A stretch of DNA of 64,000 nucleotides from Pelotomaculum schinkii (lineage in GTDB: Bacteria; Bacillota; Desulfotomaculia; Desulfotomaculales; Pelotomaculaceae), in contig NZ_QFGA01000002.1 of the NCBI RefSeq assembly GCF_004369205.1, forward strand, positions 62,001-126,000. The letters are read 5' to 3'. Of the stretch, positions 21,120-57,438 are shown in pieces. Each line of letters opens with the position of its first letter. Position 1 is the stretch's first letter. The position numbers and the translations under genes were made by a program. The notes under the pieces are model-generated. The model worked only from the letters and a program-made list of their open reading frames with translations. It did no database searches and had not been told where the DNA came from.

Positions 21120-22901
21120 TTAATTCGGTACTTCCATCACATCTATTAAATCTATCAGCATGACCTCCTTCAATTCTTGCCTGGAAAGATGAGGAGACAT
21201 ATCCTCAATAGGTCTATTTACAACAAGTTTAGGGTTTACACAAGTAGTTTGTTCTAATTTCACATCTACGAATGATGGTCCATTTGTTTTTAAAACTGTT
21301 TCAATAATATTCCGTGAATATATTGGAGAAATATTAATATAGGATGGAATCCCGTAGGCTGTTGCCACCTCTCCCAAGTCAGGACAACTATAACCTTTAA
21401 CAGTAGATTGCTGCCGGCCACCAAAATACATATCCTGAAACTGTCTGACCATCCCTAAAGACTTGTTGTTCATTAAAAATATCTTAATGGGAAGGTTATG
21501 GCTTGCAATGATATCAAGTTCCTGGATATTAACCTGAATACCACCATCTCCTGCGATAACAATTACCCTCTTACCAGGCGCCGCCTTTGATGCCCCTATC
21601 GCTGCCGGAAGCGCATAGCCCATGGCGCCCATACCACCTGAAATCAGCATCCTCTGCTGTTTTTTGATTCGGAAAGACTGCGCAGCCCACATCTGATGCT
21701 GCCCTACATCAAGGCAGATTATATCTCCTTCATCGCATAATGAAGATAGCAATTCCATAAAAGTGTTGGGCTCTAAGTTTCCGGACTGAACCGGCTGGCG
21801 AATGGTGGAGTATTTTTCCCTGTAGCCCTCAATAATTTTAGACCAGGGTGATAAATCAGCCTTTACGGAGCCTTCCAGTTTAGTGTTAATCCTACACAGA
21901 AAATCCCTGACATCACAGCTTACAGCTAGGTCAACCTTCACCTTTTCATTCAGTTCCACTGGATCAATGTCAACATGGGCCTTTTTTGCGGCACGGGCAA
22001 ATGTGTCAGGCCTTGTACCTGTCTGGCGGGTATCTAACCTGGAGCCCAGTATTAACAGAAAATCGCAATTGGCCAGGATGAGGTTGCTGTAACGATTTCC
22101 ATAAGATCCTACCATGCCGAAAAAGGCAGGATTATTATGGGGCATGGAGTCTAGCCCCATTAATGAAGCTACTACTGGAATTCCGGTTATTTCCACCAGT
22201 AAACCAAGTTCGTTAACTGCCCCGGCTGTCCGGACTCCTCCGCCTACAAGTAATAATGGCCTTTTTGCCTTCTTTATAAGACTTATTACCTCATCTGCAG
22301 CCGCGTCACTATTGCATAAATCTGCTTTGGGTATTTTACTAAACTCTTCACTGTCATAGAAGCCTTTTAATTTTTCTGGTTCAATTTGAGCACGCTGTAC
22401 GTTCATGGGGAGATCAAGAAGCACGGGACCAGGTCTACCACTCCTGGCAAGATATATGGCTTTCTCTAAATGATACCTGATTTCTTCCGGGGCAGTCACT
22501 AATACCGCATACTTGGTAAGATGTTTTACAACACTCACGATATCCGTTTCTTGGAACCCCATTTGACGTATGGGTCGATCAAATTTATATTCGTACGTAT
22601 TTACCTGGCCGGTAATAAATAAGCAGGGGATTGAGTCAAAATAACAGCTTCCAATTCCGGTAACCAGATTTAGCGCCCCAGGACCGCTGGTGGCTATTGC
22701 TACGCCAAGGTTTCCATTAATACGGGCGTAGGCCTCAGCCGCAAAAGCCGCTGCTTGTTCATGATGTACCGATACACATTGGATATCATCCCTATAATAA
22801 ATAGAATCAAGAAGATGCGTTACAGCCCCGCCAATTAACTCAAAGACATGAGCCACACCTTCTTTAGCTATGAAGTCAATAACATAATCCGAAAGCTTCA
22901 T
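21120..22901 (-). CDS. Thiamine-diphosphate enzyme, acetolactate-synthase-like (YerE-like)
   Basis: A 593-residue enzyme with the three domains of the acetohydroxyacid-synthase superfamily. The N-terminal HHEQAAAFAAEAYARI carries the cofactor-activating Glu; GDGGIQVNIQELD is the thiamine-diphosphate/magnesium motif, with the MNNKSLGMVRQFQDMYFG loop after it. No regulatory subunit (ilvH) is nearby. Next to CDP-sugar genes it resembles YerE, which adds an acetyl unit from pyruvate to a CDP-4-keto-3,6-dideoxyhexose. It is 17 bases after the reductase gene, in one operon. A plain acetolactate synthase remains possible. Confidence 0.75.
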   Translation of the reverse strand: MKLSDYVIDFIAKEGVAHVFELIGGAVTHLLDSIYYRDDIQCVSVHHEQAAAFAAEAYARINGNLGVAIATSGPGALNLVTGIGSCYFDSIPCLFITGQVNTYEYKFDRPIRQMGFQETDIVSVVKHLTKYAVLVTAPEEIRYHLEKAIYLARSGRPGPVLLDLPMNVQRAQIEPEKLKGFYDSEEFSKIPKADLCNSDAAADEVISLIKKAKRPLLLVGGGVRTAGAVNELGLLVEITGIPVVASLMGLDSMPHNNPAFFGMVGSYGNRYSNLILANCDFLLILGSRLDTRQTGTRPDTFARAAKKAHVDIDPVELNEKVKVDLAVSCDVRDFLCRINTKLEGSVKADLSPWSKIIEGYREKYSTIRQPVQSGNLEPNTFMELLSSLCDEGDIICLDVGQHQMWAAQSFRIKKQQRMLISGGMGAMGYALPAAIGASKAAPGKRVIVIAGDGGIQVNIQELDIIASHNLPIKIFLMNNKSLGMVRQFQDMYFGGRQQSTVKGYSCPDLGEVATAYGIPSYINISPIYSRNIIETVLKTNGPSFVDVKLEQTTCVNPKLVVNRPIEDMSPHLSRQELKEVMLIDLIDVMEVPN

Positions 22902-22918
22902 AAAAATACGGCTCCTTC

Positions 22919-23851
22919 TTATGGATAGAGTTCCAGGTTTTCTCTAATCCATGCAGTTGTTTTTTTAAGCCCCTCCCATAGCGATGTATTTGAAAGCCAC
23001 CCGAGTTTTGTCTTGATTTTTCCAATGTCGGCTACCCAGGAACCCGGCTCAGGCCTATGGCTGTTTACCATACCCCACCTTGGCTCCAATCCGTTTCCAA
23101 GCATGTTTGTAATCAGGGAAACAACTTCTCCAATAGAATGTTGCTTCCCTGACCCAATATTGAAGATTTCCCCCCCGGTTAAAGGAGTCTTCATTACTTT
23201 CAAATAGCCATCTAATACATCATCAATATAAACAAAATCCCGGCAGAATTCCGGGACCGAAAGTACCGGCGGCTCCCCTCTTAGGAGTGATTTTATAACA
23301 TAGGGTATCAGTCTTTTAGGGTCATCCCATGGACCATAAGGTGAAAAAAGGCGTAGTGTTACAATAGGCAGCTTCTTCACAATAGCCTCAGAGCGGCAAA
23401 AGAGAGTTGCCGCTGCCTTTGAAACGCCATAATCTCCTACCGGTTCCAGAATGTCACACTCACTCATAGGCGCCGTCTTAATTCCATATTCTGAGGAACT
23501 ACCAGTATTGATAAAACAATCAAATCCTGTTTTTTCGCAGGCTCTTAATAGATTAATGGTCCCAATTAGATTAGATTCTATAATGACCGATGGGGTTTTT
23601 TGAAAGGCAAACCCACCATAGGTTGCCAGGTGGCATATTATTGCCGGGGCTATTTTTAAAACTTCCTTTGCAACATTGCCGGCATCCCGCAAATCTACTT
23701 CATATTCGGCCACACGTCCTAATAAGTCTTTGATACGCCACTTATTTGAATTACGACGAGTAAAGATATGTACATCATACTCCAAATCAACTAACCGGCG
23801 TGTAAGACAGGAACCGACAAAACCAGTCGCGCCTGTAACTAATACTTTCAT
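22919..23851 (-). CDS. NAD-dependent epimerase/dehydratase (extended SDR)
   Basis: A 310-residue nucleotide-sugar enzyme with the Rossmann motif GATGFVGS, the catalytic TGSSSEYG and YGVSK, and the C-terminal sugar-nucleotide region. Encoded directly before the YerE-like gene, it is the natural candidate for reducing or epimerising that enzyme's product, as YerF does in yersiniose synthesis; this is inference from position. No clear Shine-Dalgarno precedes ATG 23851. Confidence 0.8.
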   Translation of the reverse strand: MKVLVTGATGFVGSCLTRRLVDLEYDVHIFTRRNSNKWRIKDLLGRVAEYEVDLRDAGNVAKEVLKIAPAIICHLATYGGFAFQKTPSVIIESNLIGTINLLRACEKTGFDCFINTGSSSEYGIKTAPMSECDILEPVGDYGVSKAAATLFCRSEAIVKKLPIVTLRLFSPYGPWDDPKRLIPYVIKSLLRGEPPVLSVPEFCRDFVYIDDVLDGYLKVMKTPLTGGEIFNIGSGKQHSIGEVVSLITNMLGNGLEPRWGMVNSHRPEPGSWVADIGKIKTKLGWLSNTSLWEGLKKTTAWIRENLELYP

Positions 23852-24137
23852 TACTATTTAACACATCCACAAAATGTTTCATATTGAAGCTAATGAAAGC
23901 TCTTATAACCTTCCCGCTTTTCCCATTTTCAAAATGATTTTGCTTGCCAGGTTATTGCCATTGTCACACCCCACTGCACATATTTATTCCATTATATGCC
24001 ACATAGAAGCAACATGTTACAAAGTGCACTAGAAGAATTACAAAATTATTATTGATATCCATAATTTGTATTTAATGGTACCATAAAACTATTCTTTGGA
24101 ATAAGTTAGTAATGTAATAAAAAAAAGAGGTGGTTTA

Positions 24138-24740
24138 ATGTCCCGTCAGATTCTGCAAAATAGAGGATTTGAAAATGAACTTGCCAGCTATGTCACCCAG
24201 GGCAAAGTCACAATTAACACTGATATTGCCTATAGCGGCATGAAATCAGCGCAACTTCTGTCTACTCCACTATCAACCGCTGAAATAGCACAAGTAGTAT
24301 TCTTGATCCTGCCTGGCGCTCAGGTCAGGTTATCATTCTTTGCCAAAAGATTCGTTGGCGAAAATGCAACAAATATATCGAATATCAGGGCCGAAGTTAA
24401 TTTTGTTAACGCGTTTGGCGTGGTTATACCACCCGGTATAGTAATGGCAATCAGGGGTTGTGACATTAGTGAAAATGCTTGGAACTATTATGAGGGGTAC
24501 GCTGAAGCGCCTTTTGGTACTTTGGCTGCGCTGGCGGTTATTCGTCTGGAACCGCCTACCAGCGGGACCAGTAGCTTGCTGGTTGACGACCTGGCGCTTG
24601 TTGTCGAAGTAGGAGCGCCTGTACCACCGCCTCCACCACCCTCGGCATCCCCGATTTACCATGAAATCCCTGGAATTTTTACGGACGCTTCCGTGAACAA
24701 CAGTGACGCCGTAGGCCCTGCATTCTCAATCCAGCAGTGA
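24138..24740 (+). CDS. Surface-type jelly-roll protein A (NTTRR-F1-like)
   Basis: A 200-residue protein without a signal peptide. Residues 1-155 look like a beta-sandwich: ILQNRGFENELASYVTQG, SGMKSAQL, IRAEVNFVNAFGVV, SSLLVDDLALV. This resembles CBM4/9-like modules and, more closely, the NTTRR-F1 domain that heads tripeptide-repeat (collagen-like) proteins of spore-formers; here only a PVPPPPPPS linker and a 40-residue tail follow. It is a clear paralogue of the protein at 25200 and the two converge. AGAGGTGG precedes the ATG. A spore- or cell-surface role is inferred. Confidence 0.65.
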   Translation: MSRQILQNRGFENELASYVTQGKVTINTDIAYSGMKSAQLLSTPLSTAEIAQVVFLILPGAQVRLSFFAKRFVGENATNISNIRAEVNFVNAFGVVIPPGIVMAIRGCDISENAWNYYEGYAEAPFGTLAALAVIRLEPPTSGTSSLLVDDLALVVEVGAPVPPPPPPSASPIYHEIPGIFTDASVNNSDAVGPAFSIQQ

Positions 24741-25199
24741 AACCCGAATTAGAAAGAATACATTTAATACGATACTAAACTCTTTATCAAACAACGAAAG
24801 AACCCCCTCTCCACCGTGAATTAAACACTGTTAATTGGACACAATTAAAAAGCCCTATCGTAGAACTCTAAGAGATAACACGAGCTGACACCGTTTTTCG
24901 TACGGTGCCAGCTCTGTTTTAAATAAATTCGATCTTAATTATAAAACTGGACGTAGTCAGCTATCAGAGTTCTTCCATTCTCCCTTAATAACGTATTTAT
25001 CTTCTAATCCTATCAGATGAACGAGTATGCAGCCATTTACCTTTCGAGGGAAACATAAAGGTAAAAAAAGCACCCCTTAAATGGGGGACAGATTGAAGAC
25101 AAACCTATAATTTCAAAATTGTGCTTTTGTAACCTTTGAATTTAAAGGAATTATAAGAGGCGTTTTTTCTAAAAAAGGGCTTTGTCGACAGCTTGACCC
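24741..25199. other. Intergenic region between the two convergent paralogues
   Basis: About 460 AT-rich bases. It holds the terminator of the plus-strand paralogue at 24882-24920 and a weaker hairpin near 25045-25080. No gene or transposon end was recognised. Confidence 0.5.
24882..24920 (+). terminator. Terminator after surface protein A
   Basis: GAGCTGACACCG pairs with CGGTGCCAGCTC (one mismatch), loop of nine bases, followed by TGTTTT. It lies 140 bases after the stop. Confidence 0.65.
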
Positions 25200-25820
25200 C
25201 TAACATTTAAAAGTAATATACCGGTTTTCGTGGCACGGTATGCCTTCATAAGCCGGTTTTACGTTTTCCGGCGGTATAAACGACACCGGGGCCTCCTGCT
25301 GTACCGGTGGTGTAAGGACTAAGGGTGGCTCCAGTACGGGGATAAACACATCGGAAACCAGTGCCAGATCATCAACCAGGATGCCGCTGGTTCCGAATGC
25401 TGAGGGCTTAAGGCGAATTAACACACGGGCTGCTACTGCATCAAGGGGAATTTCGCCGTACTCTTCATAGCGATACCATGCATTCTGCCCAAGGTCCCTG
25501 CCGCGAATGTTAATAACGATACCAGAAGCGATGGTTGTACCCAATAAATTTAGAAAATTTACTTCGGCCCTGATATTTGACACGTTTCCTGCAAACCTAA
25601 AGTTAATTTTCCTGACAAAAAAAGAAAACCTGACCGGAGCACCCGGGACTATATAGAAGATCACCTGTGATATTTCCGCCGCCGAGGTGGGAGAGGAGAG
25701 TAGTAATGCCGATTTTATACCACTGTTGGCGATATCGCCAAAATCTGAAACCTTACCCTCGGTGTAATAGTTTGCAAGCCCGTTTTCAAATCCCCTGTTT
25801 AATAGAAGCTGTTTGGCCAT
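25200..25820 (-). CDS. Surface-type jelly-roll protein B, paralogue of A
   Basis: A 206-residue paralogue of the protein at 24138: LLLNRGFENGLANYYTEGKV, SGIKSALLLSSPTSAAEISQV, SNIRAEVNFLNLLGTTIASG and SGILVDDLALVSDV align without large gaps. The tail differs, with a Pro-rich linker (VLEPPLVLTPPVQQEAP) and a Cys at the last residue. There is no signal peptide, which fits proteins assembled onto spores from the mother-cell cytoplasm. GGGGTGA precedes the ATG. The function is unknown. Confidence 0.65.
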   Translation of the reverse strand: MAKQLLLNRGFENGLANYYTEGKVSDFGDIANSGIKSALLLSSPTSAAEISQVIFYIVPGAPVRFSFFVRKINFRFAGNVSNIRAEVNFLNLLGTTIASGIVINIRGRDLGQNAWYRYEEYGEIPLDAVAARVLIRLKPSAFGTSGILVDDLALVSDVFIPVLEPPLVLTPPVQQEAPVSFIPPENVKPAYEGIPCHENRYITFKC

Positions 25821-25877
25821 AGAATCACCCCGTATTATTAATTACATTAACAGATTATTCCTATGGTATCTATGATG

Positions 25878-27203
25878 TTACAAGAAATGACAAATACTGT
25901 AACCACTATTCACCAGTCGCTCCGCCAGTCGTTTTCCGCTTAGAATGGCCTGGTCACTCCAGAGATAGGCCCACTCGCCGTACCGCCCGATGCAGTAAAT
26001 ATTATTTTTTTCTAAATAATCCAGTACTGCACGCCGGCTTTCGTTGTGTTGCTTATGGTAGAGCACTTGAGCGTGTTTTATGTCCTGGCACACGGCTAAG
26101 GTAATCTTGTCGTCTTTATCAATAACGCCGATTGTAATCATGTTTTGGATTGTTTTCTCAAGGACACTCTCCAGAGACATACCCAGCGGCTTGTGCCTTG
26201 AATAATAGACTTCCGCCTGGATGCTGCCGGTTCCGGGAGGGGAATTATTAGCGGAATACTCACTGGGAAAATGCACCCGGCAGGGGAGAATTTCCTCGTT
26301 ATAAATATAAAACCAGTGACTGTTGGCCAGGTTATTCCTCTTTACACCCAGGTTGACCAGGACAATCGACGTGCAGGCCAGCCGGTTGGCCGCTTCCCTC
26401 ATTTCCGCCGGGCAATCCCTGATACACTGCACCAGTGTGGGTAGTGGTACCGACGAGACCAGTACCTCGTAGTAACGTTCAAAGCCATTTTTGAAGATTA
26501 TTTTCTTCTTTTTGACATCAATTTCAGCCATTTCGAAACCGTAATGTACTTTGGCCCCTTTCTGTAAACCTTTTAAAAATGACTGAAAGCCTCCAGTTTC
26601 GGGATAACGGACGCTTGAAATATAGTGAATATTGTAAAATTCGTCGGACAGCGCCCCTCTGAGTACTTCCGCAAGGTCCGGACGGTAAATTCTCTGTTCA
26701 ATCCATTCCGTCGTCATTTGTTCAGGTTCCACCGTCCAGTATTTACGGGTATAGACGTATGGAAAGGTCCTGGCAAACTTCTCCCCAAATCCGTCTATCA
26801 GCCAACGGCCGTAATTATCCGCAGAGCCTGACCCGTCCTGCTCCGCCTTTACAAAATCCATAATGCAATCGACCACAAGGTCCACAGGCAGGCCCTTTAA
26901 ATTGGTCTGAACCGGATGACGGATCCAGTTAGAGCCGTACCTGTTTAAAATCCTGGGGAAAATTTCATTGAACCTTCCTTCTATACTTCCTGCAAAAAGT
27001 TTCTGTATATAAGCATCTTTCGTAAAAGACGAATGCGGCCCCTCATCAAAAATAAATCCATCAATCAGATGGGAACGGCAACGCCCGCCCCATGACGTTC
27101 CTTTTTCATAGATATCCGTGTTGTGGTTAAAGTGACTGGAAAAGCTTAACCCTGCGGGACCCGCTCCTAACGTTACTATTGGGTACGAACCACTGGAACT
27201 CAT
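25878..27203 (-). CDS. FAD-dependent amine-oxidase/UDP-galactopyranose-mutase-like protein
   Basis: A 441-residue flavoprotein. The dinucleotide-binding loop GAGPAGLSFS is followed by an acidic end and GTSWGGRCRSHLIDGFIFDEG, as in protoporphyrinogen oxidase and UDP-galactopyranose mutase relatives; the C-terminal YCIGRYGEWAYLWSDQAI matches the second FAD-contact motif of such sugar-locus proteins. A role in remodelling a nucleotide sugar is likely but unproven. AAGGAG precedes the ATG and a sigma-K-like promoter lies at 27278-27310. Confidence 0.75.
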   Translation of the reverse strand: MSSSGSYPIVTLGAGPAGLSFSSHFNHNTDIYEKGTSWGGRCRSHLIDGFIFDEGPHSSFTKDAYIQKLFAGSIEGRFNEIFPRILNRYGSNWIRHPVQTNLKGLPVDLVVDCIMDFVKAEQDGSGSADNYGRWLIDGFGEKFARTFPYVYTRKYWTVEPEQMTTEWIEQRIYRPDLAEVLRGALSDEFYNIHYISSVRYPETGGFQSFLKGLQKGAKVHYGFEMAEIDVKKKKIIFKNGFERYYEVLVSSVPLPTLVQCIRDCPAEMREAANRLACTSIVLVNLGVKRNNLANSHWFYIYNEEILPCRVHFPSEYSANNSPPGTGSIQAEVYYSRHKPLGMSLESVLEKTIQNMITIGVIDKDDKITLAVCQDIKHAQVLYHKQHNESRRAVLDYLEKNNIYCIGRYGEWAYLWSDQAILSGKRLAERLVNSGYSICHFL

Positions 27204-27277
27204 TAAACTGCTCCTTTTTTAATGTTAATAAATTAGTTTGATCCCCCTGAAATCTGTTAATTAATGAGTTTCTTTTA

Positions 27278-27310
27278 TATACTATGTTAACGATGCAAGT
27301 TTTTGCTACC
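27278..27310 (-). promoter_or_regulatory. Putative sporulation (sigma-K-like) promoter
   Basis: On the minus strand, CATAGTATA (27278-27286) fits the -10 pattern CATAnnnTA. Upstream is the 16-base motif GGTAGCAAAAACTTGC (27295-27310), which recurs with two base changes before the gene at 35313. The -35 AC is degenerate (GC). Confidence 0.4.
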
Positions 27311-27327
27311 ATTAATGCTAATCTTTT

Positions 27328-27369
27328 CAAAAGACAACCCAGGAGCTAAAACCCCTGGGTTGTCTTTTG
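27328..27369 (-). terminator. Strong hairpin terminator
   Basis: A perfect 16-bp stem (27328-27343 with 27354-27369) with a 10-base loop. It follows the small gene at 27413 and precedes the flavoprotein promoter, so it separates the two transcripts. Confidence 0.75.
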
Positions 27370-27412
27370 CTTACAAAAAGCAGGCTGGATATCCCATAAA
27401 CATAAACCTAAA

Positions 27413-27574
27413 CTAAACAACAGCAAGCCAAAGGAAAGGAAATACGACCGGGGTGCCTATCCGTACTCGAAGGATAGGGAATGTTTCAAGAAAAAACCAA
27501 AGGATAGGGAAAATAATTGGACTAATCGGAAGTCCAGTTACAATGGCCGGTGGGAGAACTAATGATGGTGTCAT
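27413..27574 (-). CDS. Small Pro/Phe-rich hydrophobic protein
   Basis: A 53-residue protein starting MTPSLVLPPAIVTGLPISP with alternating proline and large hydrophobic residues (IIFPILWFFLETFPIL, VVFPFLWL). I do not recognise a family. An ideal AAAGGAGG sits seven bases before the ATG. A CATACTATA box (27605-27613) matching a sigma-K/sigma-E -10 lies upstream and a strong terminator downstream, so it looks like a real single-gene unit, perhaps sporulation-controlled. The sequence suggests a membrane or coat-embedded peptide. Confidence 0.6.
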   Translation of the reverse strand: MTPSLVLPPAIVTGLPISPIIFPILWFFLETFPILRVRIGTPVVFPFLWLAVV

Positions 27575-27604
27575 TTTGCAAACCTCCTTTTGTATATTTA
27601 ATTG

Positions 27605-27613
27605 TATAGTATG
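27605..27613 (-). promoter_or_regulatory. Putative sporulation -10 box
   Basis: CATACTATA on the minus strand fits CATAnnnTA (sigma-K) and is close to CATACAnT (sigma-E). It lies 30 bases before the start of the 53-residue protein gene. No convincing -35 is visible. Confidence 0.3.
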
Positions 27614-27806
27614 AGGAATTTGGTATATTTGCCATATATTAACAACTTTTTTTAATAAAAATTGCACCTCCCAACGTTAACGAGGCGCCCATGAAGCCGG
27701 AAGCAAAGCAAATGGAGTTGACCGTGAGTCTAAATAAATATCAGAAAGAAATATTTTACAGAATAAAAAATACGGCAAATATATTGCCGCAAGTACCGGT
27801 ACATCT

Positions 27807-28346
27807 TTATAATCTTCCCTCATTTTTCATTTTTTCAAAGGCCTTAGAAATAAACGTATCAACACCTGCATAGAAGTACTCTTTAAATTCCTTAATTTCA
27901 TCGATACTCCAGTCCCACCATCTTATTCTAAGCAATGCTTTTATTTGTTTCTCCGAAAACCTGTACCTTATTATCCTGGCTGGAATTCCAGCAACGATGG
28001 CATAAGGAGGCACATCCTTGGTAACTACCGATCCGGCTCCGACAACGGCGCCGTCTCCAATTTTTACACCTGATAGTACCAAGGCATTGACTCCTATTAT
28101 AACATCGTTACCAATAATGGTCGGGCCTTTTGTATATATGTCACTTTCAACTTCATTAATTTCTTGCAAATGAAATGATTTTAAAGAAAAATTTGCTACA
28201 TTGTTAAGATAATGTTCACCACCCCCCAATACTTTGGCCCCTACTGACAGTCCGGAAAACTTCCCCATCTGAATAGTATCATGAGGACCAAAGATCAATA
28301 ACTGATCAGGAAATGCTTTCGAATGCTCCCCTATGGCAATTGTCAT
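27807..28346 (-). CDS. Hexapeptide-repeat acyltransferase (CatB/LbH type)
   Basis: A 179-residue left-handed beta-helix acyltransferase. The hexapeptide turns are visible in [20 protein letters not shown] and [20 protein letters not shown], ending in [13 protein letters not shown], the typical terminus of the CatB/xenobiotic-acyltransferase branch. In this locus it most likely acetylates a sugar. GAGGTGGGG precedes the ATG. It is the last gene of the glycan operon that starts at 36470, 117 bases after rfbH. Confidence 0.85.
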
Positions 28347-28463
28347 TTCCCCACCTCATTTCCATATACACCAATATATTCCATATTTGGTAAATGCGTA
28401 ACTCTGTACTAGCCTACTACTTGTTAATACTCACTGGCATCCCCTCATAATTGAACAACATGC

Positions 28464-30062
28464 CTATTTCATCCGTATAAACCGGTCAAAAGTATCCAGA
28501 ACATAATTAATCTCTTTTTGGCCCAGCCCGGGATATACACCAATCCAAAATGTCCGTTCCATGATCAGGTCGGTGTTTTTCAGTTCCCCCGCCATCCTGT
28601 AATGGACACCCTGAAAGGCGGGCTGTTTTAAAATATTGCCGGCAAAAAGCAATCTGGTGCGAATATGGTTATTTTCCAGGTGCTGTACCAGCTGCTGCCG
28701 GGTAAAAGGGGCTCCGGCGCGGACGGTCAAAGGAAAGCCAAACCAGCACGGATCAGTATTTTCCGTGGCTTTTGGAAGGATCAAGACATCTTCATAATTT
28801 TGTAAGCCAGTATACAGCTGTTGAAAGTTTTTCCTGCGTATGCCGGCAAAATCAGCTAATTTAGCCAGTTGCGCCACTCCGACAGCTGCCTGCATATCAG
28901 TTATTTTCAAGTTGTACCCGAAGTGGGAATAGGTATATTTATGGTCGTAACCGCTGGGAAGCTCCCCCAGTTGGCACGCAAACCTCCGGCCACAGGTGTT
29001 ATCCTTGCCCGGCGGGCACCAGCAGTCCCTCCCCCAGTCCCGGAAAGACTCGACAACACGCTTTAACTGCGGGGTGCTGGTTAGCACCGCTCCCCCCTCA
29101 CCCGTGGTAATGTGATGGGCGGGGTAGAAGCTGAGGGTGGACAAATCCCCGAAGGTGCCGGTATACCTGCCTTTGTAAGTTGAACCAAGGGCGTCGCAGT
29201 TATCCTCAATGAGCCAGAGATGGTGTTTCCGGGCTATTTCCGTCACGGCATCCAGGTTGAAAGGGTTGCCCAAGGTATGGGCCAGGATGATGGCCCTGGT
29301 TTTAGAGCTGACGGCTGCCTCCAGTTGTTCAGCATCCACATTATACGTCTCCAGGTCAACATCTACAAAAACAGGTACCAGGCTGTTTTGAACGATGGGG
29401 GTGACGGTGGTTGGAAAACCGGCCGCAACGGTTATCACTTCGTCGCCGGACTTGAGCTGCCTGTCTCCCAGCTTTGGTGAAGTAAGGGTGGAAACCGCCA
29501 ACAGGTTTGCCGAAGAACCGGAATTGGTCAGCAGGCAGTGGTGGACACCAAGGAAGTTCGCCAATTTTTCTTCAAAGATTGACGCATATCTACCGGTGGT
29601 AAGCCAAAAATCCAGTGATGCGTCAATTAAATTGATTATTTCCTTTTCATCGTATACTTTACCGGAACAGGCTACCGGGGTTTTTCCTCGCTCAAAGGGC
29701 TGCGGTGTATGAAATAAATTATAATACTGCTCAGCCCGCCGGGAAAAATCGCTTCTCCAGAGCTTCTCCAGGCACTGCCAGTTAATTTCACCCACCTTGC
29801 CCTTGATATCCTCCTCCTCGATTATTAGCCGGCAATTTAAATTTATACCCAAAGGTATTTCCCAACTTTTTTTAAGAACGAGGTCCCCTGCCTCCAGGAT
29901 AAAAGGGTCTCCATTATCGGAGACATTCCTTGAAGAGGTGTGTCTCCATTCCTTAGCCGCAGGCTTTATCATTGGCCAAACACAGTACCCCACAGCCTCT
30001 GATGTGGCCACCAGGACAAAGCCACCCTCAATTTTTAAAATGTCACCTGCTTTGAATGACAT
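28464..30062 (-). CDS. rfbH: CDP-4-keto-6-deoxyglucose 3-dehydratase (RfbH/E1) with extra N-terminal domain
   Basis: A 532-residue protein. From about residue 95 it is RfbH/AscC, the PMP- and [2Fe-2S]-dependent enzyme that removes the C3 hydroxyl. [14 protein letters not shown] has His in place of the usual PLP-binding Lys, and the Cys cluster [18 protein letters not shown] matches the iron-sulfur site. Residues 1-90 ([20 protein letters not shown]...) are not part of the usual enzyme and look like a small beta-barrel. AGGAGGAG before ATG 30062 supports the long form. The partner reductase (E3/AscD) is not in the window. Confidence 0.9.
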
Positions 30063-30130
30063 TTCACTCCTCCTAATAACAATATTAAATATCAGTCACT
30101 TTTAATGTTTCATTATGAATGAACTTCTAA

Positions 30131-30907
30131 CTAATAAACCTTCCACTGGGGATTACCGTGATCCCAGATTTCATTCAACTCTTTGTAATCCTTGTAGGTA
30201 TCCATACATTTCCAGAAGCCTTCATGTTTATATATTGCGAGCTCTCTTTCATTGACCAATTGTTCAAAAACTTCCTGCTCGAGAACACAATTATCATCCA
30301 TGTAGTCAAATATTTTTCTATGGAATACACAAAAGCCACCATTGGCATAGTCATTCAGCAAAGGCTTTTCTTTAAACCCGGTTACGATACAATCAGGTTC
30401 GATGGTAATTTGCCCGAACCTGGATTGTGGTCTGATTCCTGTTATAACCCCGATCTTACCCTTCTGTTTAAAATATCCTTCCAGTTTTTCAATGCTGACG
30501 TTTGAAAGTCCGTCTCCATATGTCAAAAAGAAATATTCCTCATTTATATATTTTTCAATCTTTTTAATACGACCACCGGTATTGGTTTCCAAGCCGGTGT
30601 TGGCAAAAATGATGTTCCAATTCTCTGCCGGATTTCCGTCTTGTATTATGGTTTCTATACCGTCTTTTAAATTTAATTGGACATCACAAAGACGGTTTTT
30701 ATATTTTATAAAATACTCTTTAATAAGCTCTCCTTTATAACCAAGACACAGAATAAAATCATTAAAGCCATAGTGTGAATAATGTTTCATAATATGCCAC
30801 AGAATTGGGTAATTACCAATTGATAACAGCGGTTTGGGTTTATTTTCTGTTTTTTCTCTTAAACGTGTACCTTTTCCGCCGCAAAGAATAACTACTTTAG
30901 GTTTCAC
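30131..30907 (-). CDS. rfbF: Glucose-1-phosphate cytidylyltransferase
   Basis: A 258-residue nucleotidyltransferase making CDP-glucose from CTP and glucose 1-phosphate. The N-terminal VVILCGGKGTRLREKTENKPKP is the nucleotide loop (LCGGKGTRL), with GNYPILWHIMKHYSHYG, TYGDGLSNV and GFWKCMDTYKDY as RfbF family motifs. I choose GTG 30907: AAAGGGG precedes it and translation starts VKPKVVILCGG; a longer frame overlaps the upstream glycosyltransferase. First step of the CDP-sugar pathway here. Confidence 0.92.
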   Translation of the reverse strand: MKPKVVILCGGKGTRLREKTENKPKPLLSIGNYPILWHIMKHYSHYGFNDFILCLGYKGELIKEYFIKYKNRLCDVQLNLKDGIETIIQDGNPAENWNIIFANTGLETNTGGRIKKIEKYINEEYFFLTYGDGLSNVSIEKLEGYFKQKGKIGVITGIRPQSRFGQITIEPDCIVTGFKEKPLLNDYANGGFCVFHRKIFDYMDDNCVLEQEVFEQLVNERELAIYKHEGFWKCMDTYKDYKELNEIWDHGNPQWKVY

Positions 30908-30926
30908 AGGGCTGCCCCTTTCTGAT

Positions 30927-32048
30927 TTAAATGAAAATCCTAAAACCGTCTCTGTTAAATCGAGGAAAAACAAACCAAGGAGCGGGTGTGAAAAAACCGT
31001 GCCTGTTATTTTGGGGATAATCCTCTGCGTTTTCGCAACTAAAAGCTTCCATAATCGCCTTTTTATATAAGGGGAAGACCTTTTCAGGCAGAAAATCAGT
31101 TACTCGTTCTGACTGGCGGCTGATTATTTCTTCCCGCTTAGCCCGGTCGTTCACTATCCAGTCCAGCAGCCTGGCTGTATCCCGCACATCCTTATTATTT
31201 ATCAGGCAGCCGGCCCCTCCCAGAATCTCCGGTACGGCTGCACGATCGAAGGCGATAATCGGCACTTTCAGGTACATAGCCTCGATCAACGGGGTAGAGA
31301 ACCCTTCATATTCACTCATACATAAAAAAACCTGTGACAACCGGTAGTAGGCCAGGAGCTTTTTAATTGAAACACGCCCTGTCAAAAAAACATTCTGTAT
31401 CTGCAGCTCCTTGATTAAAGCCAACAGCTTCTGACAGTACCCGGCATGAGACGAAAAGCTTCCTACCAGGAACAAGCGGGACTTCGGATTAAGTTTCTTG
31501 TGGTAATAATTAAAAATCGATATTGTGTCTTCCAGTTTTTTGTTTGGGGTAATCTGGCCGACAAAAAGCAGGTTTGTATAGTCATCCTCATACGCCTTCA
31601 TCAACTGCAAATCAGGCTCCTGGTCATATTCCTTCAGGTCTAAAGGCAGAGGCAAAACCATAGTCTGTTCATAGCCCGCTTGGTGCAATTCCTCTTCGAG
31701 GTACTTTGTAGTGGTAAAGGCAAAAGCAAAATTATTTTTTAGAGTTTTTATTTCCTCACGCCCGCCCAGCAGGGAAATCTGTACCGGGTGGTTTTCAAAA
31801 TACTCCGGGGGCATTATTCCGTGGTAAAAAAGCACTTTTCTTTTTGATTTTAAATAGGCCAGGGTTTTGGCTGCCCGTGACCCCATAAACATATGGTAAA
31901 TAATGTTTTCTCTTTCTTCTACCTGCATAGCTTCCGTAAAAATGTCCGACTCACAACCAAGATCCTTCATTATTTTTTGTAAAACCAAAACTATATTGCT
32001 GATGTCATTGCCGTACCATATGGCAGGGGTAATTTGGTCTATTTGCAT
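30927..32048 (-). CDS. GT4-type glycosyltransferase
   Basis: A 373-residue GT-B glycosyltransferase. The C-terminal half carries LLFVGQITPNKKLEDTI and the donor-binding motif SEYEGFSTPLIEAM followed by KVPIIAFDRAAVPEI, typical of family GT4. The acceptor and sugar are unknown. GGGGAG precedes ATG 32048. It lies 17 bases after the upstream glycosyltransferase-like gene and 19 bases before rfbF. Confidence 0.87.
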   Translation of the reverse strand: MQIDQITPAIWYGNDISNIVLVLQKIMKDLGCESDIFTEAMQVEERENIIYHMFMGSRAAKTLAYLKSKRKVLFYHGIMPPEYFENHPVQISLLGGREEIKTLKNNFAFAFTTTKYLEEELHQAGYEQTMVLPLPLDLKEYDQEPDLQLMKAYEDDYTNLLFVGQITPNKKLEDTISIFNYYHKKLNPKSRLFLVGSFSSHAGYCQKLLALIKELQIQNVFLTGRVSIKKLLAYYRLSQVFLCMSEYEGFSTPLIEAMYLKVPIIAFDRAAVPEILGGAGCLINNKDVRDTARLLDWIVNDRAKREEIISRQSERVTDFLPEKVFPLYKKAIMEAFSCENAEDYPQNNRHGFFTPAPWFVFPRFNRDGFRIFI

Positions 32049-32065
32049 CGTACGCTCCCCATTTT

Positions 32066-33040
32066 TTAAATTTGATTATATAAATCGAGCAGTCTTTTTT
32101 TCGCCGACTCGTTATCGAAAAAGGCCAGCTGAGATTCGGCATAGGCCATAACTTCTTCATAAAAACTGTTATTTTTCAAGAGCTCTTTGGCCAATTTGAC
32201 CGCCCCGTCAATGTCCTGGTAGCTTACGCACAGACGCGGGAAAAGTTTTTTTTGCGTATAAAAGTTTTCCGGAGCAATGCAGGGCATTCTTACGGCAGCG
32301 CAGTCAAGGGCAAATCTCCCCCAGATCTGTCGAAAGTCCAGGTGCAGTCCCATGATGGATTGATTCAGATGGAACATAAAATCTTCCCAGCGGGGTGTAT
32401 ATCTAAAAGTGATCGGGGGTATCGGCATATATTTTTTCATCAGACGGATATACTCTATTTCCTTCAGATTATATATATCAACGGCCCCCGGCAAACCGAT
32501 TTCCGAGAGGGCTGCCAGATTGACAAACCCGTTCCGAAACATGCTCCCTAAGGAGATGATCTGTTTTTTTTCAACCTTGGGACACAATTCCTCCCGGACC
32601 TTTTTCAAGGGAAACGGAACGCCGACCAGCCCCACCGGCTTGTTGGTCAGGGCCTTTATGATGGGAATGTCGAATTCGTGCGTGACGCCCACTGCATCGG
32701 CTATATTTAAAAGCTCAATCAATTTTACCTGCAGATCACCCCAGATGTATGAGGTGAAATATTCCATTTCCCCATCTAAGAAAACAATAACCCGGGCCGT
32801 CGACTGCCTTTTTATTTTTAGGCCGACCTCAATTGATTCATGGCGCACAGCTACCATCACCAGGTCAAATTCGTTGAAGAATTCATAAGGTAACCCGTAA
32901 TGCCCCTGGTCAAAATACACGCCGTTATAATGAGTCCCTTTCATTACCGTAGCCCACTGGGTAATCCGGTTTACCTCGTCGGTGAAAACTTTGCCGTCTG
33001 AATCGCTCATGGGCATTAAACTGACCAAACAGAACTTCAT
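32066..33040 (-). CDS. Glycosyltransferase-like protein, paralogue 1
   Basis: A 324-residue cytosolic protein closely related to the product of the next gene upstream (33278): both begin MKFCL, share FDQGxYGLxYxxFNxFDLVMVAxRxExIEVG, TNKPVxxVGxP, and a C-terminal RFxxDCAAVxxPC....TQKxLFPRLCVxYxDIxGAV block. The layout, with the DCAAV segment placed like a GT-B donor loop, suggests an unclassified glycosyltransferase. I start at ATG 33040 (after GAGGTGA), not the upstream extension, whose 42 residues have no counterpart in the paralogue. Confidence 0.65.
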   Translation of the reverse strand: MKFCLVSLMPMSDSDGKVFTDEVNRITQWATVMKGTHYNGVYFDQGHYGLPYEFFNEFDLVMVAVRHESIEVGLKIKRQSTARVIVFLDGEMEYFTSYIWGDLQVKLIELLNIADAVGVTHEFDIPIIKALTNKPVGLVGVPFPLKKVREELCPKVEKKQIISLGSMFRNGFVNLAALSEIGLPGAVDIYNLKEIEYIRLMKKYMPIPPITFRYTPRWEDFMFHLNQSIMGLHLDFRQIWGRFALDCAAVRMPCIAPENFYTQKKLFPRLCVSYQDIDGAVKLAKELLKNNSFYEEVMAYAESQLAFFDNESAKKRLLDLYNQI

Positions 33041-33277
33041 GATCTTCACCTCATTCGTGCAGCGACGAAGAAGTCCATGGACAAAACTTATTGCATAAAA
33101 GCAAGAGTAATAAACGTTAAAAAGTGTAGCTCTGACTTCTAAATCCTCGCAAGGGCTTTGTGGCAAAGCTGCACGTTTTCAATAATTGCTGGTACTGTCT
33201 TAAAACGGTCGTTATATGAGAAGAAATTTAACTTTTCACATTGCCAAAAAGCTTATAAGAATTCATCATCCAAGGCA

Positions 33278-34267
33278 TTAGCTAATAAGGTTTAACAGCC
33301 TCATTTTGCACTGCTCAGAGCTGAAGCGCTCAATTTGTGATTGGGCGTAGGTTACAGCTTCGTCAAAAAACTCAGCATCAGACATTAATTTCTTCAACAG
33401 TGCTACCGCTCCCCCAATATCATGATAGGGTACGCACAGACGGGGGAATAGTATCTTTTGTGTATATAGAGAAGGGGAGCCCACGCATGGCGTCCCGACA
33501 GCGGCACAGTCAATGGGGAACCTGCCCCAGGAATACCGGTAATCCAGGTGCAGGCCCAAGAGGGAATAATTTACCTGGGTAATAAAATGATTCCAGCCTG
33601 ATTTTAAAGACCTGAATGAAATAAATGGTATCGGTAAGAATTTTCTTATAGACTGGACATATTCCATTTCAACTGGCTCCCATATATTTACCACACCCGG
33701 CAGACCAGTTCCAGACAGTGCCGCCAGGTTGACTAACGCATTCCGGTTATGTGTAAGAATTGATCTAATGCTGCTGCCCAATACAATCTCCTTCCGTTTT
33801 TGGGCAGGCGGACACATCTCACGGACCCTTTTAATCGGGTAAGGCGCTCCGACCACATCAACCGGTTTATTGGTCAGGGCTTTGAAAAAAGGAATGCTTT
33901 CGTCGTGCAGCACTGCCACGGCATCGGCAATGTTTAAAAGCTCCACCATTTTTACCTGCAGATCACGGGTGGTATAGGTCGTGAAATAATCAACTTCACT
34001 ATCAAGGAAAACCACTACTTTTACTTTTGATCTCTTTTTGACCTTGATGCCTACCTCAATGGTTTCTTGGCGGAGAGCGACCATAACCAGGTCAAACTTG
34101 TTAAAATAATCGTAACCCAGGCCGTACCTCCCCTGGTCGAAAAGCGGCCCGTTATATACCGTCCCGCCCATGATTGTGGCCCAAAGGTTCATGTTGTTTT
34201 GTTCAGCAGTATAGTCCTTCCCATGCTCCGGATGATAGGGATCGGTACTCAGCAGACAAAACTTCAC
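33278..34267 (-). CDS. Glycosyltransferase-like protein, paralogue 2
   Basis: A 329-residue tandem paralogue of the protein at 32066, aligned end to end. It starts with GTG 34267, overlapping the dehydratase stop as GTGA, so translation is coupled. The Rossmann-like N-terminal half ([31 protein letters not shown]) and the C-terminal [19 protein letters not shown] support a GT-B-like fold; no known family could be assigned by eye. Two copies suggest transfer of two similar sugars or to two acceptors. Confidence 0.65.
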
Positions 34268-35247
34268 AGCACTTCACCCCCGGGAAAATGTTCGCGGTAC
34301 CATGCAATCGTTTCTTTAAGCGCCTGCTCCAGTGGGTATTGCGGTTGCCAGCCTAAAGTTTTTTTGGCTTTTTCAGTACTAAGGTATTGGTTCCGGATTT
34401 CCTTGATCGCTTCATTTTTAATAACCGGCTGCAAATGCGAACAACCCATCAAGGCCAAAATCTTATTAACCAGTTCAATGACAGTTATCTGCAATCCATT
34501 GCTGAAATTGAAGGCTTCTCCGTGTATCGGCATTTCGTCTATCTTTTGTGCCAGAAACAGATAAGCCTCGGCTCCGTCCTTAACATAGAAATAGTCCCTG
34601 ATATAGGTGCCGTCGCTGCGGATAACCGGCCTCTCACCCTGTAGGGCCGACCGGATCGTCCCGGGCACGAGGCGGTTGAAATTGAGGTCTCCAGGCCCGT
34701 AAAAGTTGCCACAGCGAGTAACACATACTGGTAAATCATAAGTAAGGCTGTACATTTGCGCGATCAGGTCGGCACAGCTTTTCGATACGTCATATGGGTG
34801 CCTGCCCTGCAGCGGGGCGTCTTCTTTATACGGGAGGCTCTCATGTTCGCCGTAAGCCTTGTCACTGGAGGCCACGATAATCCGCTGCACGCCGGGATTC
34901 CGGCGGCACGCCTCCAACAGATTCCAAGTGCCCCTGATGTTTGCGTCGAAAGTGGACAGGGGGTTCTTGTTGGCAATGCCTACTATGGTCTGGGCTGCCA
35001 GGTGAAAAACGGTGTCTATCTCGTATTCATTAATCGCTCTTTCCAACAGTCCGTAATTCTCCACGTTACCATTCACAGTAACCATTTTTGGCTTTAGTTG
35101 TTCCGTAAAAAGCCTCGATTTAGGGACATAGTCCCGTACCAGGCCAACTACGTTGGCTCCCCGGCCAATGAGAAGCTCACATAAATGGGTGCCCAGTAGC
35201 CCCGTACACCCGGTGACAAAGACATTTTTATCTTTCCAGTAACTCAT
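34264..35247 (-). CDS. rfbG: NAD-dependent sugar-nucleotide 4,6-dehydratase (RfbG-like)
   Basis: A 327-residue extended [17 protein letters not shown] (NAD loop), ASSDKAYGE and [10 protein letters not shown] (catalytic Ser/Lys/Tyr region), [20 protein letters not shown], and [19 protein letters not shown] at the end, all typical of CDP-glucose 4,6-dehydratase relatives. With rfbF and rfbH in the same operon it should make CDP-4-keto-6-deoxyglucose. AAGGGA precedes ATG 35247. A GDP- or UDP-sugar dehydratase cannot be fully excluded. Confidence 0.82.
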
Positions 35248-35312
35248 TTACTAATCCCTTTCTCTTATAGAACACGAAAAAAGACGCGTATTTAACACTC
35301 TTTATAGTTAAA

Positions 35313-36470
35313 TCAGGCTCTTATTTCCATAGCCTTATCGGACATTTTATAATAATCGTGCTGGTGAACAGCATTGAAACCGCCATCGTCCACTTTTATC
35401 TTAAGGGGACTTACGGCCTGGTTTCCGTCATTGTCAGTGGCGACTATTGACAGAACGTGAAGCCCAACGTCCTCTGGCCCTGGTATACCGGAAATACTGG
35501 CAACGGCATCGGCTGCGGGCAGTTCGGTGGTTATGTTCAATCTCGCCCAAAACGGGAGATTTATCGCCTCAATCGCGGTAACCAGGCCGTCCGGATCGGA
35601 GGCTACTATATCAATATTGAAAAGCATTCCGATAGGTGCGGATTGGGTTTGATCAGTCGCTGCGCATACAGGTGGCTCACCGGCCTTTGGAATAATCCGG
35701 ATCAGGGCTTCCACACCTGCTTTTGACTTTCCGTCTTCCGCCATTACCTGGTAGGACCATAGCTGGCCAGGCTTGGTACCTGTGGTACGCCAGGTAACCA
35801 CGTAGGTATCGGTTTCTACGGTCAAAGGTTTGGGAACAAGAGGGGGGCCGGGCTGGGTGAACCCACCGGCATTGCCACTGGCTTCCACATCCGTGGCCAA
35901 ACGACAGGTCAGAGAATCGCCGTCAGGGGCGGCTACAGCAACCGGAAAGGAAAATACGGAATTTTGCGGAGCATTAACGAATACCGGTACAAAAGCGGCT
36001 GGGGAACCGTTCGACGTTGTAAACTCCACCAGCGTTTCTATTTGATAACCACGGCCCGGGTTATTGACGTGTTCTTTTAATGCCTGTCGATGAGTACTTT
36101 TTATTCCCGCTTTCCAGGGTCCTTCCGTTTCCGGGTCAGCCGGGGCGGGATAAGTGTGTAATATAGTTTTTCTTTCAGTTACCGGATCCAGCGCCCTGCC
36201 CAGGATCCAGTTTTCTTTTTCGCTGAAAGCTGTGACGATATACTTCAGTATGAACATTAAGGTACCGTCGCCGAAAACGAGACTGGTGCCCCCTGTTGTA
36301 TCGAGGATGATATCTCCCCTAACGGGAAGTCCGTCCTTGCCGCTGCCGGAATAAGCATCCCGCCTGTAGGCACCAAGTAGTATGAATTCAGCAGTATTTG
36401 GAGCTATATCCTGACGAGAACGCCATGAAATCTGGCCGAAACAATAATGCTTTAAATCTTTTCCTCCCAC
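35313..36470 (-). CDS. Surface-type protein with Ig/cadherin-like repeats
   Basis: A 385-residue protein without signal peptide or anchor. The N-terminal 130 residues (CFGQISWRSRQDIAPNTAEF...) are unfamiliar; then follow two or three Ig/cadherin-like modules: PAAFVPVFVNAPQNSVFSF, LWSYQVMAEDGKSKAGVEAL and NIDIVASDPDGLVTAIEAIN with IVATDNDGNQAVSP, Asp-rich loops that often bind calcium. It heads the glycan operon, so it may be the protein that gets glycosylated. GTG 36470 follows AGGAGG by nine bases. Confidence 0.65.
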   Translation of the reverse strand: MGGKDLKHYCFGQISWRSRQDIAPNTAEFILLGAYRRDAYSGSGKDGLPVRGDIILDTTGGTSLVFGDGTLMFILKYIVTAFSEKENWILGRALDPVTERKTILHTYPAPADPETEGPWKAGIKSTHRQALKEHVNNPGRGYQIETLVEFTTSNGSPAAFVPVFVNAPQNSVFSFPVAVAAPDGDSLTCRLATDVEASGNAGGFTQPGPPLVPKPLTVETDTYVVTWRTTGTKPGQLWSYQVMAEDGKSKAGVEALIRIIPKAGEPPVCAATDQTQSAPIGMLFNIDIVASDPDGLVTAIEAINLPFWARLNITTELPAADAVASISGIPGPEDVGLHVLSIVATDNDGNQAVSPLKIKVDDGGFNAVHQHDYYKMSDKAMEIRA

Positions 36471-36518
36471 AATTTACCCCTCCTGGAAAATCTTCTTCAA
36501 TTTATTAATAGATTATTT

Positions 36519-36550
36519 ATAGTAGTAAGTTTTTGTTACCAATACTTAAA
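36519..36550 (-). promoter_or_regulatory. Putative sporulation (sigma-K-like) promoter of the glycan operon
   Basis: On the minus strand GGTAACAAAAACTTAC (36535-36550) is followed by AATAATCTA (36519-36527), one base from CATAnnnTA. The 16-base upstream motif matches that before the flavoprotein gene at 25878 in 14 positions. The implied leader is about 40 bases. Confidence 0.4.
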
Positions 36551-56862: not shown

Positions 56863-57438
56863 TTAGCTCCCGAGCAGCAGGGCAATCTCGTCCATAATCC
56901 GGTCGCTGATAATTTCAAGATCTTCCCTGGTTGCCTTTGTCATGGACTGAAAGCGGATAGGACTGCCTACATGGACCGTTATCTTGCTAAACACACCTCT
57001 AGTCCCACTTACGGCAATCGGCACGATCGGGGTTCCCGCCTTAAGAGCAATCATGGCGGCGCCAAGGTGCGGCTTTAACATATCCCCGGTATGGCTCCTG
57101 GTCCCCTCGGGGAAAAGTCCCACGACTTCGCCTGCTTGGAGCAGACGTAAGGCCGTCCTCACAGCATTCCGGTCGGTCACATCCCGGCGGACCGGAAAGG
57201 CTCCGGAAGAACGTACGGCGTAGCCGACCAGGGGTATCTTAAAAAGCTCGGACTTGGCCATGAAAAAAACCTGGCGTTTAAAGGCGCAAATAATCGCAAC
57301 CGGGTCCCAGTAACTGACGTGGTTGGCCACCAGCACCACCCCGCCGGTGGCGGGAAGGTTCTCCGCCCCCCGGATTTCCCAGCGCCTCAGCACTAATAGG
57401 ACAAGCCTGGCGCCGGCTTTAAGTAAACTGAAAATCAT
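56863..57438 (-). CDS. plsC: 1-acyl-sn-glycerol-3-phosphate acyltransferase
   Basis: A 191-residue membrane-associated acyltransferase making phosphatidic acid. NHVSYWDP is the HxxxxD catalytic motif, FPVRRDVTDRNAV and LFPEGTRSHTG bind glycerol phosphate, and GTPIVPIAVSGTRG closes the family core. The ATG overlaps the cmk stop by four bases (ATGA) with AAGGAAGG upstream. Confidence 0.94.
   Translation of the reverse strand: MIFSLLKAGARLVLLVLRRWEIRGAENLPATGGVVLVANHVSYWDPVAIICAFKRQVFFMAKSELFKIPLVGYAVRSSGAFPVRRDVTDRNAVRTALRLLQAGEVVGLFPEGTRSHTGDMLKPHLGAAMIALKAGTPIVPIAVSGTRGVFSKITVHVGSPIRFQSMTKATREDLEIISDRIMDEIALLLGS

Follow-up and report, generated by a model that had tools for sequence, protein, structure and literature searches.

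A convergent pair of jelly-roll proteins in a sugar locus of Pelotomaculum schinkii as candidate spore-envelope proteins

Results

We analysed a stretch of 64,000 nucleotides (hereafter the window, in whose coordinates all positions without another identifier are given) from the 4.44 Mb genome of Pelotomaculum schinkii (assembly GCF_004369205.1, contig NZ_QFGA01000002.1, positions 62,001 to 126,000), and in it two genes, named here A and B, that code for small jelly-roll proteins and that we regard as candidates for a function in the spore envelope. Gene A (24138..24740, plus strand) encodes 200 amino acids, with a domain like those of carbohydrate-binding modules (CBM) and related to NTTRR-F1 at about residues 3-157, followed by a Pro-rich tail. 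Gene B (25200..25820, minus strand) encodes a paralogue of 206 amino acids, 55% identical to A over 178 aligned residues (E 2e-64). The two open reading frames (ORFs) are convergent, with stop codons 459 bp apart, and the gap between them contains a strong hairpin (24876..24928; -22.2 kcal/mol, z -6.5) with a short U-rich stretch after it, a probable terminator. A signal peptide was not seen in either N-terminus, by eye or by a simple hydropathy scan, and neither protein has a triplet-repeat stalk: their Pro-rich tails, of 44 and 50 residues, are free of triplets, and no collagen triplets were seen in A or B. The original prediction, made from the letters of the sequence, had described two convergent paralogues of about 200 residues lacking signal peptide and stalk, and in all these points it was borne out.

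The same convergent pair, flanked by the same genes, is present in Pelotomaculum sp. UBA10960, where A is 83% identical and B, in the two parts that can be read, 85-88% identical. Comparison with UBA10960 gives NG86 dN/dS ratios of about 0.58 (A) and about 0.47 and 0.56 (the two parts of B), those of real genes that evolve rather fast. The tail of B is kept in UBA10960 while that of A is cut directly after PPPPPPSASPI, so the tails are less constant than the jelly-roll domain. The ten tails measured among the homologues range from 21 to 192 residues, with 6-20% Ser+Thr, and one copy in Desulfoscipio geothermicus (L033:13729-14199) has no tail and ends with the domain. Thus, the Pro-rich tails that had been attributed to each protein do exist, but with less constancy than the domain that bears them. 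The tail-to-tail order, also pointed out beforehand, is found only in the two Pelotomaculum genomes among eight carriers; the six remaining carriers have single copies, tandem copies or copies that lie apart. A fourth hit in the own genome (L004/L035, E 0.06) was dropped, its reading frame being implausible.

Regarding the domain, the NTTRR-F1 profile (NCBIfam NF033675, 155 positions) matches A with 45.2 bits (residues 4-155) and B with 50.9 bits (residues 2-155), that is, over 152 and 154 residues and below the cut-off of 70. We take the name NTTRR to mean a domain N-terminal to a triplet-repeat region. A and B share domain length and boundaries with this family, and they differ from it in the scores and in the absent stalk. 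In Pfam, which includes CBM4_9 (PF02018), no family was listed for A or B at E up to 10, so of the two profiles proposed as checks by the original prediction only NTTRR-F1 gave a match. AlphaFold2, given 10 aligned sequences, models A as a jelly roll with 10 strands and a mean pLDDT (predicted local distance difference test) of 76.3, reaching about 84-95 at residues 41-150 and lower values in the first 40 residues and the tail. Structural comparison (Foldseek, VIA-align) matched it to the phage tailspike 5w6h (Z 15.9), CBM16 (Z 14.1), CBM61 (Z 13.5), the sugar-binding domain of Fbs1 (Z 13.4) and CBM4-2 (Z 13.2), the three CBM matches spanning 134-140 residues. On this model, A is a CBM-type jelly-roll beta-sandwich, in line with the sandwich that had been expected. 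When the family profile was run against the sequences of solved structures, the one match was an alginase (E 0.12). The fold of A is common to CBM4_9, CBM16, CBM22 and CBM61, and A and B differ from these modules in being single-domain, enzyme-free, signal-less and without a Pfam match; two related three-domain proteins do exceed the PF02018 cut-off (42.5 and 27.5 bits against 25.9).

A and B are placed inside a sugar locus that extends from 21120 to 36470 and whose other genes are all on the minus strand. On one side of the pair are an acetolactate-synthase-like thiamine-diphosphate (TPP) enzyme (21120..22901), below the cut-off of its best model, and, adjacent to it, a sugar-nucleotide epimerase, dehydratase or reductase of the short-chain dehydrogenase/reductase (SDR) type (22919..23851). 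On the other side lie an FAD (flavin adenine dinucleotide)-dependent PRK07208-like protein (25878..27203) and a hexapeptide acetyltransferase-like protein (27807..28346), both under the cut-offs, and then RfbH, the CDP-4-keto-6-deoxyglucose 3-dehydrase (28464..30062; 738.2 bits, cut-off 423), whose nearest solved structure is a CDP-6-deoxy-hexulose 3-dehydrase (585.9 bits). RfbH is extended at its N-terminus by about 100 residues, and those copies in relatives that are complete are similarly long; an E3 reductase partner was not recognised in the locus. They are followed by an RfbF-like glucose-1-phosphate cytidylyltransferase (30131..30973, the true start being probably a GTG near 30907; 278.9 bits, cut-off 300.25), a GT4-type glycosyltransferase-like protein (30927..32048), two paralogous proteins without Pfam or NCBIfam match (32066..33166, with its true start probably near 33040, and 33278..34267), an RfbG-like CDP-glucose 4,6-dehydratase (34264..35247; 208.5 bits, cut-off 278.45) and, at the head of the operon, a signal-less protein with an Ig-like (He_PIG) match (35313..36470). 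The protein at 33278..34267 is a putative GT-B glycosyltransferase: its model is weak (mean pLDDT 57.5) and resembles BshA, MshA and Gtf3, and a sequence search of its family against solved structures gave one barwin only (E 0.59). From 2 to 5 copies of this family were seen per locus. Hydropathy gave no sign of a multi-pass flippase or polymerase among the proteins of the locus.

In the yersiniose pathway, a two-carbon branch is added by YerE (PMC4753412). The TPP/SDR pair recalls this pathway and the TPP enzyme is possibly, by analogy, of the YerE type. A branched octose pathway of this type would combine a TPP enzyme and a reductase with genes for a CDP-3,6-dideoxyhexose; here the adjacent TPP and SDR genes are candidates for the first two, and among the Rfb-type genes only RfbH is above its cut-off.

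The distribution was analysed in a set of 100 genomes and in 113 genomes of the order, both counts including the window genome. Of the 100 genomes, 7 have close homologues of A and B at E<1e-40 and 11 have matches at E 1e-5; of the 113, 8 have close homologues at E<1e-25. At E<1e-100, the GT-B-like family of the locus occurs in exactly the same 7 genomes, with weaker matches in two more (1.3e-43 and 9.2e-20), and the eighth carrier, G106, found among the 113, also has the sugar locus. Thirteen of the 14 close jelly-roll genes of these eight genomes are within about 13 kb of locus genes (about 12 kb in G005, about 7 kb at most in the rest), and all eight carriers have at least one copy near the same CDP-sugar/glycosyltransferase locus. 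The placement inside a sugar locus, already recognised in the window, is repeated by the homologues, and a genuine partnership between A/B and this locus is supported.

Jelly rolls of this kind also occur beside, or fused to, proteins and domains of spore-coat type. CotE (PF10628), which is present in 15 of the 100 genomes and therefore cannot be called a common neighbour, is encoded a short distance upstream of jelly-roll genes in four relatives, D. geothermicus (2), Desulfallas Bu1-1 (2), G082 (1) and G106 (1), the last recognised by BLAST to the preceding ones. A protein of 307-320 amino acids was seen near CotE and jelly-roll genes (L024:7903-8832, L025:4262-5221 and L091:14944-15864); its L024 copy is without Pfam or NCBIfam match and its L091 copy without NCBIfam match, and an AC-N-CATA box precedes all three copies tested. 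More distant copies of the domain, found below the cut-off by the NTTRR-F1 profile in 39 of the 100 genomes, with no single match above 70 in any of them, in many cases follow a LysM-BsuPI or a SPOCS-like domain or form three-domain proteins, as assigned by reading and Pfam. One three-domain relative (L044) reaches 135.8 bits to NTTRR-F1 as a whole protein, and one distant copy (L067) follows what reads like a secreted enzyme. The set of LysM-BsuPI-jelly-roll proteins (n=10) was assigned partly by reading; five were scanned in Pfam (L048, L054, L062, L056 and, via the same gene in L012, L047), of which L056 has BsuPI without a LysM match. In the window genome itself, a SPOCS-like-jelly-roll protein (L034:6765-9467) adjoins a SipL-type gene with three SPOCS domains and a LysM domain. 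To the CsxC family this protein shows a very weak resemblance (22.1 bits, cut-off 135). In Clostridium difficile, sipL and spoIVA are sigma-E genes needed for coat localisation (PMC3789822). CotE, SipL/SPOCS (PF12673) and SafA-type LysM coat-assembly proteins are thus neighbours or domain partners of this jelly roll, and none of their domains is present in A or B. An intact sigma-K gene is present in the window genome (367.3 bits, cut-off 298.65).

Upstream of 12 homologues, a set that includes two pairs of closely related rows (from the window and UBA10960), we found an element GTAACC-N15-GGAATANNTTA whose -10 box is located 37-42 nt before the start. The form AC-N16-18-AATA precedes all 12, and a strict form precedes 10 of them, where a Markov model predicts 0.74 and none of 1000 draws reached this count. 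In G106, outside the motif training, both jelly-roll genes have the element, one of them with the box farther away, at about -66, which makes 14 of the 14 tested; the homologue of the operon-head gene in G106 has it too. A sigma-E box was found before none of the 12. In the window, the putative element of A is AC-N18-AATAAGTTA (24077..24109, plus strand), proposed by comparison, and that of B is GTAAC-N17-AATAATCTG (25850..25881, minus strand). A further candidate, GTAAC-N17-CATATAAT (23991..24020, minus strand), lies 169 nt before the SDR/TPP operon and is kept in UBA10960; since AC-N17-CATATAAT alone is uninformative (9 matches genome-wide, 13 in the reversed control), this match counts only for its place and its conservation. 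Before the sugar-operon head there is GTAAC-N17-AATAATCTA (36508..36539, minus strand), also in UBA10960 and G106, and before the acetyltransferase gene a weaker GTTAC-N17-AATATATTG (28371..28402, minus strand).

When a matrix built from 9 rows was scanned over the window, B scored 18.2, the operon head (36539) 17.5 and the acetyltransferase (28402) 13.5, and in four Markov copies of the window (single strand) no score exceeded 16.3; the acetyltransferase match is at chance level and ranks under matches within coding sequence. The pattern GTnAC-N16-18-[CA]ATANNN[TC] occurs within 250 nt upstream of 4 of the 13 locus genes and of 0 of the 34 other genes of the window, and AC-N16-18-[CA]ATANNNTA before 2 of the 13 and 3 of the 34. 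Genome-wide, a fixed pattern picked after the matrix scan gave 8 matches (4 in the reversed control), three of which are those of B, the acetyltransferase and the sugar-operon head. Another of the 8 is a similar element at -64 of the gene for ComA, a phosphosulfolactate synthase (L076, G000:C2 near 604619); the B. subtilis counterpart, the yitCD operon, is described as mainly sigma-K controlled (PMC517825).

The classical form AC-N15-18-CATANNNT, searched within 115 nt upstream, precedes 5 of 5 CotE genes (six were tested for promoters; the sixth, of G106, is without it), 8 of 10 LysM-BsuPI-jelly-roll genes and 3 of 5 acetyltransferase genes, against 7 of 170 control ORFs, three of which are a SipL-type gene, a locus acetyltransferase and the gene beside CotE. 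The descriptions of sigma-K boxes give AC at -35 and CATATAAT at -10 for C. difficile, and for B. subtilis elements of 5 and 10 bp separated by a 15-bp spacing. The motif counts together with these descriptions suggest that A, B and genes of the locus may be under the control of sigma-K.

A sigma-K-like element is also present before a DUF2935-like gene.

Discussion

The fold class of A, the co-occurrence and proximity of close homologues with the glycan locus, the proximity of CotE in four relatives, the joins to coat-type domains and the shared promoter-like elements come directly from the computations; from them we infer sigma-K control, a location on the spore, the kind of sugar that is made and the role of A and B in binding or carrying the glycan. 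On balance a role in the spore envelope seems probable for A and B, and to the fuller proposal, that they are late mother-cell proteins of the spore envelope which organise the glycan of the locus by binding or by carrying it, we give a probability of about two in three. According to this proposal, the mother cell would make A and B, which have no signal peptide, during the stage governed by sigma-K, along with the enzymes of the surrounding locus, which would build in the mother-cell cytosol a glycan from a CDP-3,6-dideoxyhexose, possibly with a two-carbon branch. The CBM-type jelly roll may attach to the glycan or to the coat as it forms, with the Pro-rich tail, in those proteins that have one, acting as a spacer or link. 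The pair would in this way organise a layer of glycan around the spore, similar in function to the B. subtilis sps glycan with its crust proteins. Deposition on spores from the mother cell, as originally predicted, is backed by the CotE neighbours, the SPOCS-like and LysM joins, the sigma-K-like elements and the intact sigma-K gene.

The B. subtilis sps operon with CotX, CotY and CgeA has a cytosolic sugar-nucleotide pathway, crust proteins, a sigma-K promoter and a place on the spore surface, features that are predicted for A, B and their locus; it differs in the proteins and in the sugar, here of the CDP-3,6-dideoxyhexose type and not legionaminic acid. BclA and other collagen-like exosporium glycoproteins are spore-surface proteins linked to a special sugar, such as anthrose, and A and B differ from them in having another domain and no collagen triplets. 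A loose precedent is the chitin-binding protein Bt-CBP21 of Bacillus thuringiensis, which is made in the spore mother cell and deposited with the Cry crystal (PMC3688941).

Several observations weigh against this proposal. Cyanobacterial cyclases (Z 13.1-13.5) and phage fibres match the model of A about as well as the carbohydrate-binding modules do, so the fold by itself is no proof of sugar binding. The carrier genomes are related, and the co-occurrence with the locus does not amount to 7 or 8 independent events; besides, one of the three D. geothermicus copies is away from it. CotE was not detected in the window genome, UBA10960 (G002), G005 or G018. Among the five SPOCS-like fusions scanned, only one (L061, 28.6 bits) exceeds the Pfam cut-off of 23.6, three remain below it (L034, L055 and L066, with 20.8, 21.8 and 22.8 bits) and L014 has no match. 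As regards the promoters, the patterns were tuned on the jelly-roll genes and picked once matches had been seen, and a match inside an ORF at 57105 scores 19.1, above B and the operon head. The -10 box of the jelly-roll genes is AATA, departing from the CATA of described sigma-K boxes; the classical CATANNNTA precedes 1 of the 12, as expected by chance (1.1), and the CATA form was found within 115 nt before 0 of 7 SPOCS-like-jelly-roll and 0 of 4 tandem-jelly-roll genes. The element is lacking before CotE and 6 of 7 sugar-locus genes in G106, before all 6 sugar genes of G005, apart from one loose match before RfbH, and before the operon-head homologue and RfbH of D. geothermicus.

Within the spore-envelope proposal two forms can be distinguished. 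In the first, which we hold tentatively and at less than even odds, A and B would be unglycosylated lectins or tethers that bind the glycan non-covalently and hold it to the coat. Many of the top structural matches are carbohydrate-binding modules and sugar-recognition domains, the domain is conserved and the tails are variable or missing, and close homologues are confined to genomes with one glycan locus (7 of 7, plus G106), with distant copies in many genomes without it among the 39 that have the domain. However, the same fold serves other purposes, and proteins that accompany the locus could equally be the acceptors of its sugar. In the second form, which we find doubtful, cytosolic glycosyltransferases of the locus would add sugar to A and B, at their Pro-rich tails or at Ser/Thr on their surface, and the proteins would then display it on the spore. 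The common promoter element and the constant neighbourhood suit it, and the lack of a visible flippase in the locus suggests that a mother-cell protein is glycosylated in the cytosol. There is also a precedent in CotV and CotX of B. subtilis, which were proposed as glycosylated crust proteins (PMC7439481). Nevertheless, the composition and lengths of the tails mentioned above, cut in A of UBA10960 and absent from one D. geothermicus copy, speak mildly against carrying, and the Ig-like protein at the operon head is an equally good candidate acceptor. The possibility that A and B are glycan carriers, raised in the original prediction, stands beside a glycan-binding function that the fold favours at least as much. 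The Ig-like protein (35313-36470), signal-less and preceded by a promoter-like element, may be a further spore-surface protein.

A and B could instead belong to the sugar pathway as vegetative or cytosolic proteins, such as scaffolds for glycosyltransferases that make a cell-surface polysaccharide, with no role in the spore. The surrounding sugar enzymes would suit such a polysaccharide equally well, and the missing CotE of the window genome and the sugar genes of several relatives without the element fit this explanation. However, the CotE neighbours in four relatives, the joins to SPOCS-like and LysM domains and the sigma-K-like elements point to the spore, and no flippase or polymerase for export was seen in the locus, so we consider it improbable. 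That A and B are captured tail-fibre-like domains of phages is hardly credible, in spite of the resemblance of the A model to the tail spike 5w6h and to tail fibres in BFVD and of a weak head-spike profile match in B (23.7 bits, cut-off 36), because the annotated neighbours are sugar and amino-acid genes, the relatives of A and B stay with the sugar locus in 8 genomes and the domain is common in phage fibres generally.

Returning to the spore-envelope proposal, a wider version of it, which we regard as rather unlikely in its entirety, would be a clostridial spore-crust system in which spore lectins of CBM fold, co-expressed under sigma-K with a cytosolic branched CDP-dideoxy-octose pathway and an uncatalogued GT-B family, bind the glycan and tether it to a coat in which SPOCS- and LysM-anchored proteins also contain this jelly roll, the domain being a general connecting unit of spore envelopes in the order. 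Little seems to have been described of the spore surface in syntrophic and sulfate-reducing Clostridia, none of the papers found dealing with it by title or start of abstract. NTTRR-F1 is named in none of the papers searched, and no title or start of an abstract found describes a locus of the A/B type (most subscription journals being outside the coverage). The locus supplies concrete candidate genes for a spore glycan, with the proteins presumed to be its structural partners and a promoter; the orphan NTTRR-F1 domain becomes linked in this way to CotE, SipL/SPOCS and LysM coat proteins, and the locus opens the way to ask how spores spread and persist in sediments and digesters.

Finally, the third D. 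geothermicus copy (L028:10001-18630), the one away from the sugar locus, is located beside a second small jelly-roll protein, a protein of 1555 amino acids that matches SdrD_B and a multicopper-oxidase-like protein.

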